DNA from: Chromatiales bacterium
GTDB lineage: Bacteria > Pseudomonadota > Gammaproteobacteria > SpSt-1174
Assembly: GCA_014762505.1 (NCBI GenBank)
Contig: JABURS010000028.1
Coordinates: 1-64,000 of the forward strand
Length of the DNA stretch: 64,000 nucleotides
Reading direction: 5' to 3'
Shown here one piece after another: positions 26,165-27,005 of this stretch. The notes below the pieces were generated by a model. That model was not told where the DNA came from, ran no database searches, and saw nothing but the letters and a program-made list of their open reading frames with translations. The translations under genes were made by a program, and so were the position numbers. Positions within the stretch are counted from its first letter, which is position 1. Each line of letters opens with the position of its first letter.

Positions 26165-26818
26165 ATGCGACGGCTCGGGCTGGCGCTGTGCCTGCTGGTG
26201 TCCGGCCTGCTGCCGCTTGTCGTGCAGGCCGCGGTGGATGACGCGAGGACCCAGGACCTGATGCCACGTATACCCCTCAGCGATCCCTGGCAGCCCGTCC
26301 TCGACGAGCTCGCCCTCCGCTATCCCGGGCATGACCGGCAACGGGTGGTGATCGTGAGCGTGGGCGAGCAGCAGCTGCATTACTTCGAGGAGGGCCGGCT
26401 GGTGCGCAGCTACCCGGTCTCCACCTCGCGCTATGGCATCGGCAGTGCCGAGGGCAGCAACCGCACGCCACTGGGCGTGCACCGGGTGCGGCGCAAGATC
26501 GGTGCCGATGCGCCCCTGGGCACCATTTTCAGGGCCCGCCAGGACACGGGTGTCGTGGCCGAGATCGTGCACGAGCCGCGCTTCACCGACGACGACTACG
26601 TCACCAGCCGCATCCTCTGGCTGGATGGCCTGGAGGAGGGCCGCAATCGCGGCCCCGGGGTGGATTCCTTCCAGCGCTACATCTATCTGCACGGCACGCA
26701 CGAGGAGGGGCTGATCGGCCAGCCGGCCTCGCATGGCTGCGTGCGCATGTACAACCGCGACGTGGCCGAGCTCTTCGATGCCCTGCCCGAAGACAGCCTG
26801 GTGGTGATCGTCGAATAG
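26165..26818 (+). CDS. L,D-transpeptidase (YkuD domain), exported
   Basis: A signal peptide (about residues 1-22, ending VVQA) precedes a YkuD catalytic domain. The active-site motif is visible as HGTHEEGLIGQPASHGCVRM, with the catalytic histidine and cysteine. Such enzymes cross-link peptidoglycan 3-3 or attach lipoproteins to it. No LysM or other binding domain is present, and the 217-residue length fits the small stand-alone class. It starts one base after purF. The riboswitch of the next gene lies about 55 bases downstream. Confidence 0.9.
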   Translation: MRRLGLALCLLVSGLLPLVVQAAVDDARTQDLMPRIPLSDPWQPVLDELALRYPGHDRQRVVIVSVGEQQLHYFEEGRLVRSYPVSTSRYGIGSAEGSNRTPLGVHRVRRKIGADAPLGTIFRARQDTGVVAEIVHEPRFTDDDYVTSRILWLDGLEEGRNRGPGVDSFQRYIYLHGTHEEGLIGQPASHGCVRMYNRDVAELFDALPEDSLVVIVE

Positions 26819-26871
26819 CCTCCGAGTGACGGCCGTTTGACAGCCCGCCAGGGCTGGCATAGGCTTTTCGC

Positions 26872-26939
26872 AACGCGCCGATTTGAATCTCAGCTTGCGG
26901 GCGCTCAACAAATGCAGCTAAAGCGGGAGTCCATCAGGA
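26872..26939 (+). promoter_or_regulatory. SAM-II-type riboswitch with antiterminator, upstream of metZ
   Basis: P1 is GCGCC/GGCGC (26875-26879 with 26900-26904). The conserved GATTT follows P1 (26880-26884), and AAATGCAGCTAAAGCGGG (26910-26927) is the conserved 3' side of the SAM-II aptamer (AAATG-n-AGCTAAA, then GGG). TTGC (26895-26898) can pair with GCAG (26914-26917) as the pseudoknot (inference). AAAGCGGG (26920-26927) can instead pair with CCTGCTTT (26940-26947), forming an antiterminator that uses the aptamer's own 3' strand. SAM binding should therefore free the downstream terminator and turn metZ off. Confidence 0.85.
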
Positions 26940-26971
26940 CCTGCTTTGGCATTGCTGAAGCGGGTTTTTTT
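26940..26971 (+). terminator. riboswitch-controlled terminator before metZ
   Basis: CCTGCTTT (26940-26947) pairs with GAAGCGGG (26957-26964), and further pairs extend the stem toward a 3-base loop. Seven T's follow (26965-26971). The left arm is the same segment claimed by the antiterminator, so the two folds exclude each other. Confidence 0.88.
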
Positions 26972-27005
26972 GTGCCCGCATCAAATGATATGGAGAGGAA
27001 CAGCC

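Follow-up and report, generated by a model that had tools for sequence, protein, structure and literature searches.

The 187-base gap upstream of metZ in the window (the whole stretch of 64,000 nucleotides from a Chromatiales bacterium that was analysed) very probably contains a SAM-II riboswitch of a gamma/beta branch with a short, weak P2a, which would turn metZ off through transcription attenuation. Comparison with related leaders showed the aptamer and the terminator, pairing arms that exclude each other and are conserved, and the target gene. On a joint reading, it is likely that gamma/beta SAM-II is a widespread, under-annotated weak-P2a branch whose antiterminator captures the ligand-binding strand, and that the metXZ element and Rfam family RF02424, the latter on the wrong strand, are the same riboswitch.

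Organization of the metZ locus

The gap contains a promoter-like pair, the SAM-II aptamer, an antiterminator/terminator switch, and a Shine-Dalgarno-like site, and purF was found upstream in the window. The gene positions and leader features are summarized in Table 1. The NCBIfam match of the downstream gene exceeded its cut-off, confirming metZ as the target named in the initial annotation. Transcription is expected to start near position 26872. A comparable TTGAC..TAGG pair precedes P1 in several relatives, and near-consensus promoters immediately 5' of SAM-II P1 have been described (Corbino 2005, PMC1273637).

Table 1. Features of the metZ leader and its flanking genes in the window
Feature	Position	Strand	Evidence or remark
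L,D-transpeptidase/carboxypeptidase-like gene	26165-26818		Flanks the 187-base gap on the side opposite metZ
Promoter -35 element TTGACA	26837-26842	+	Sequence reading
Promoter -10-like element TAGGCT	26860-26865	+	Sequence reading; 17-nt spacer
SAM-II aptamer (P1, triplex loop, P2 pseudoknot)	26875-26928	+	RF00521 21.3 bits; own model R1 74.8 bits (not independent: R1 was built from 11 sequences, including that of the window)
P1 5' strand GCGCC	26875-26879	+	Pairs with 26900-26904
GATTTGA loop, third strand of the SAM-II triplex	26880-26886	+	Invariant in seed alignment
P2 5' strand CAGCTT	26891-26896	+	Pairs with AAGCGG 26921-26926, one A.G mismatch
Loop segment CAGCTTGC	26891-26898	+	Sequence reading
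P1 3' strand GGCGC	26900-26904	+	Pairs with 26875-26879
GCTAAAGCGGG, aptamer 3' strand and antiterminator 5' arm	26917-26927	+	
CCTGCTTTGGC, shared arm (antiterminator 3' arm and terminator 5' arm)	26940-26950	+	
GCTGAAGCGGG, terminator 3' arm	26954-26964	+	Covaries with the shared arm in relatives
GAAGCGGG, landmark directly before seven T's	26957-26964	+	Sequence reading
T7 tract, intrinsic terminator	26965-26971	+	In metZ leaders, the first five T's each carry about 2 bits
GCCCGC 3' of the terminator	26974-26979	+	Potential partner of GCGGGT 26960-26965 in read-through RNA
Shine-Dalgarno-like GGAGAGGA for metZ	26992-26999	+	Well outside the aptamer, about 65 nt beyond it
metZ, O-succinylhomoserine sulfhydrylase, 398 aa	27006-28202	+	NCBIfam NF006003 712.9 bits (cut-off 522); TIGR01325 590.5 bits

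Identification of the SAM-II aptamer

Every SAM-II landmark listed in the initial annotation was found in the window sequence, in the order and place given there. A search of 261 bases against all 4227 Rfam families gave an RF00521 match of 21.3 bits (E 0.0076). Because this score is below the gathering threshold of 36 bits, a scan at Rfam thresholds misses the leader; at gathering thresholds, the scan returned tRNAs only. Within its genome, no other sequence matched RF00521 as well, the runner-up scoring 15.5 bits. Homologous leaders of relatives, which are alignable through the platform and situated before metZ-type genes, scored 42.1, 40.8, and 37.8 bits, and leader L150 scored 36.9 bits, all above gathering. 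The lack of a significant RF00521 score, named in advance as a refutation, nearly holds for the window alone but does not hold once relatives are included.

A shuffle test of the fold energy of the 100-nt leader was uninformative on structure (z -0.74), and the case for the structure is comparative rather than shuffle-based. The segments GAUUUG, UUGC, and GCUAAA, which are invariant in SAM-II and form the binding site, were unchanged in our alignment (A1) and present in the window, as were all nucleotides invariant among relatives. Across 89 distinct sequences, all cells of the five P1 pairs were paired (100%), and three of these pairs showed double changes; 0 of 500 shuffles were as good, and every slid version was far worse. 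The P2 core in 244 leaders was paired in 100% (UU/AA), 91% (C-G), and 89% (G-C) of cases, followed by a conserved A.G, and being mostly invariant it showed little covariation.

P2a comprised at most a couple of weak pairs in the window, and the next positions were paired in only 29-57% of leaders. A stable P2a helix, a feature tested for SAM-II membership, was therefore absent from this branch; since P2a is not universal in SAM-II (5 bp in 60% of SAM-II; PMC6061858), it is a variable rather than a defining feature. The weak P2a, set against the long C-G P2a of the Rfam consensus, is a plausible cause of the low RF00521 scores in the branch. The downstream metZ agrees with the methionine/SAM-gene targets of SAM-II. 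The scores of relatives, the retained invariants, and the double changes in P1 bear out the SAM-II identity proposed initially, and on this comparative evidence the predicted aptamer is real and well supported.

A regulatory RNA of the same shape that responds to a ligand other than SAM, such as SAH or another sulfur metabolite, would be compatible with the sub-gathering score of the window and the reduced P2a of the branch. However, the invariants of SAM-II are unchanged, relatives exceed the RF00521 cut-off, and the downstream genes are methionine/SAM genes (metZ and, as read by eye, metK, metN, and metF), so that we consider a different ligand very unlikely.

Antiterminator/terminator platform

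The platform was analysed in 252 distinct SAM-II leaders, of which 141 precede MetZ-family genes, 131 of these being at least 55% identical to the MetZ of the window; duplicates were removed and phylogeny was otherwise ignored in these counts, while the sliding control keeps relatedness. Intrinsic terminators were present in 112 of the 131 metZ leaders and their stem covaries, which upholds the terminator coupling put forward initially. In the window, folding placed the stem at 26936-26968 with the T7 tract, between the aptamer and metZ. Compensatory changes across relatives included C-G, G-C, U-A, and A-U at the same pair, and the counts at pair B2:C-3 were C-G 68, U-G 67, U-A 12, G-C 10, and A-U 3.

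The terminator 5' arm was able to make at least 7 bp with the aptamer 3' strand (GCUAAAG) in 103 of the 112 terminator-bearing metZ leaders. The window antiterminator consists of 11 pairs between GCTAAAGCGGG and CCTGCTTTGGC plus TCC/GGA, and spans the entire conserved GCUAAA strand. The three-strand platform proposed initially thus gains comparative support, with an antiterminator that is longer than the AAAGCGGG then claimed. Folded each alone, the window antiterminator had an energy of -20.6 kcal/mol versus -17.7 kcal/mol for the terminator, and the medians of the metZ set were about equal (-12.5 and -12.2, respectively), all of these energies being for RNA without pseudoknot and without ligand. 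The predicted antiterminator is mutually exclusive with both the aptamer and the terminator.

Because the aptamer fixes the GCUAAAG strand, the antiterminator cannot covary over it. Of the arm covariation that had been suggested as a check, compensatory changes were seen in the terminator stem, and the antiterminator was supported by conservation of the shared arm. Antiterminator cells were paired in 86% of cases in register versus 30-50% when slid by 1-3 bases, and all six CUAAAG pairs occurred in 64 of 108 leaders versus at most 2 when slid. The UUURGC half of the shared arm carried 0.3-1.5 bits per column (0.8-1.5 without the A/G position); its terminator partners carried 0.03-0.4 bits per column, and only 35-82% of them pair. 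Of 169 leaders, 80 carried the motif CTTTRGY in the segment separating the aptamer from the terminator, versus 4.3 in shuffles. The shared arm thus appears to be conserved beyond the needs of the terminator, supporting the antiterminator.

In the proposed mechanism, RNA polymerase would transcribe the aptamer first. Without SAM, the aptamer strand GCUAAAGCGGG would pair with CCUGCUUUGGC as the antiterminator, and metZ would be transcribed. With SAM, the P1/P2 pseudoknot and the triplex would retain the GCUAAAG strand, and CCUGCUUUGGC would then pair with GCUGAAGCGGG ahead of U7, terminating transcription before metZ. Stepwise folding of the window predicted P1 first, followed between 26945 and 26965 by the antiterminator, and folding with the aptamer strand held back yielded the terminator, from which we infer that SAM binding would favour termination. 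This is consistent with the OFF logic of the initial annotation, which the comparative data also favour. Beyond the T tract, the predicted fold reverts strongly to the antiterminator, so that the function of the switch would depend on kinetics. As a member of the SAM-II family, the leader would be expected to bind SAM, to terminate in response to the ligand, and to switch metZ off.

Downstream of the terminator, RYGCCY was found in 57 of 112 metZ leaders, and about half of the metZ leaders carried a T7-R-Y-GCCYG-type segment (window 26965-26979) that could pair with the terminator 3' arm. The GCCCGC pairing stabilises the predicted read-through fold, and we considered it as a lock on the read-through form but did not retain it, as its covariation with the terminator 3' arm was weak (full pairing in 56 of 108 leaders versus a shuffled mean of 45; Fisher p 0.09).

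Translational control would require that SAM hide the metZ ribosome-binding site and that the hairpin and T's be incidental. A few SAM-II RNAs are translational, the metX crystal RNA being a rare such case (PMC6061858), and the terminator is absent in several leaders, including L010 and alphaproteobacterial ABC-transporter leaders. In the metZ leader, however, the Shine-Dalgarno-like site lies far past the aptamer and outside P2, and the terminator arms and T tract are conserved, covarying, and present in most metZ leaders. Translational control of metZ is therefore highly improbable, and transcription attenuation is the preferred reading.

Distribution and target genes of the branch

Searches with our own model R1, built from 11 leaders, revealed the element at E <= 0.01 in 193 of the 369 class genomes searched, representing 143 of 272 genera, although a few of the weakest matches may be chance. 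The groups included Halomonas, Billgrantia, Chromatiales, Ectothiorhodospiraceae, Acidiferrobacterales, Gallionellaceae, Nitrosomonadaceae, and Chromobacterium, and matches were also found in alphaproteobacteria; a plasmid search gave two short partial matches only. Where the downstream gene was checked, the branch stood mostly before metZ, and metK, metN, and metF were also read by eye. Gamma/beta SAM-II appears to be widespread rather than sporadic and much commoner than the literature says, which seems to be new. Most members of this branch, which is present in roughly half of the class genomes sampled, go unseen at the Rfam SAM-II threshold. The added value of the analysis lies in recognizing this large under-annotated branch and in the probable equivalence of two elements of other names to it.

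Several further leader types were observed. Eleven SAM-II leaders precede an apparent metK (SAM synthetase), which is not the usual reported SAM-II target; several of them have terminators, and many have CAGATTGC replacing CAGCTTGC in the loop. In Rhizobiales (Microvirga, Bosea), six leaders and others similar to them lack a terminator and precede an apparent ABC-transporter periplasmic substrate-binding protein; these are possibly under translational control. Closely paired SAM-II aptamers were found at 11 leaders, the first aptamer usually with a terminator and the second often with the P1 CCGCC/GGCGG, but such tandems were dropped as a novelty because they are already published (PMC9481103). 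Six matches in records titled Acidimicrobiia, Pirellulaceae, and Latescibacterota may reflect horizontal transfer or mis-binned contigs.

Relationship to RF02424

RF02424 (the Bp2_287 "sRNA") matched the minus strand of the window at 26838-26970 with 25.8 bits, versus a gathering threshold of 70. On the transcribed strand, which carries the promoter, terminator, and gene, no RF02424 match over gathering was obtained. Read as its reverse complement, the RF02424 consensus corresponds to SAM-II, and each of the 20 RF02424 matches in 274 genomes of the class overlaps a SAM-II match on the opposite strand; the bases of L150 score above the RF00521 cut-off and match RF02424 on the opposite strand. 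The exact Burkholderia-type P1 (GCGTC/GACGC) with an RF02424-like linker was found in none of 369 genomes.

In Burkholderia, Bp2_Cand287 was tested by RT-PCR, and the same report locates it ahead of methionine genes and proposes that it acts in cis (PMC3521395). Bp2_287 was reported beside metX, metZ, and purF, the latter two being neighbours that it has in common with the window element (PMC3521395). Unlike the window element, a plus-strand leader, Bp2_287 was assigned to the sRNAs, and its model describes the complementary strand. A small RNA from the opposite strand, as RF02424 implies, could draw on the minus-strand match and the RT-PCR test, but it is extremely improbable given the reverse-complement consensus with its fully overlapping matches, the plus-strand location of promoter, aptamer, T tract, and metZ, and the cis-acting element suggested by the original report itself. 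RF02424 looks like the SAM-II leader modelled on the wrong strand; what is listed as an sRNA family would then be a riboswitch in reverse orientation.

Comparison with known systems

The initial annotation regarded terminator coupling as unusual for SAM-II, a view that the literature contradicts. Intrinsic terminators follow many SAM-II representatives (Corbino 2005, PMC1273637), most SAM-II RNAs act on transcription, the crystallised metX RNA being a rare one that acts on translation (Huang & Lilley 2018, PMC6061858; Barrick & Breaker 2007 is also cited for mostly transcriptional control), and the S. meliloti metZ SAM-II is predicted to terminate (Scheuer 2022, PMC9373788). With terminator-coupled SAM-II already in the literature, the mechanism has precedents, and the switch is a typical member of its class; its useful consequences concern annotation. 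The shared-arm design offers a clean case of a ligand-contacting aptamer strand doubling as antiterminator.

The window element shares with RF00521 SAM_alpha (the metA motif) P1, the GAUUUG loop, the P2 pseudoknot with GCUAAA, a methionine-gene target, a promoter just upstream, and the downstream terminator of many members. It differs from typical RF00521 members in its weak P2a in place of a C-G-rich helix of about 5 bp, its sub-gathering score, and its gammaproteobacterial branch. The SAM-II long loops family RF01726 matched the same bases only weakly (12.5 bits, E 9.4), far below RF00521. The Sinorhizobium meliloti metZ switch (RZ sRNA; PMC9373788) has the same gene, aptamer class, and predicted termination on SAM binding, and yields a terminated RNA of about 100 nt that is more abundant in rich medium. 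It is alphaproteobacterial, unlike the window element, and the two are likened by gene, class, and predicted mechanism rather than by their arms. The tandem SAM-II and SAM-II/SAM-V systems (PMC9481103) have SAM-II plus a terminator as their first unit, and tandem SAM-II pairs occur in relatives, whereas the window has a single aptamer.

Leyn 2014 (PMC4239095) found SAM_alpha confined to Rhizobiales and Rhodobacterales and reported, for betaproteobacteria, a novel metXZ RNA element with no ligand assigned. Like the window element, metXZ has a pseudoknot and a terminator/antiterminator and lies upstream of metX or metZ. It was reported before metZ in Methylophilales and Nitrosospira, a nitrosomonad (PMC4239095), and we found branch SAM-II before metZ in two leaders each of Methylophilales (L150 among them) and Nitrosomonadaceae. 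Matched by description and placement rather than letter by letter, the metXZ element is probably the same RNA as this SAM-II branch, and an orphan methionine RNA element thereby gains a probable ligand, SAM. The branch thus seems to have been published twice already under other names.
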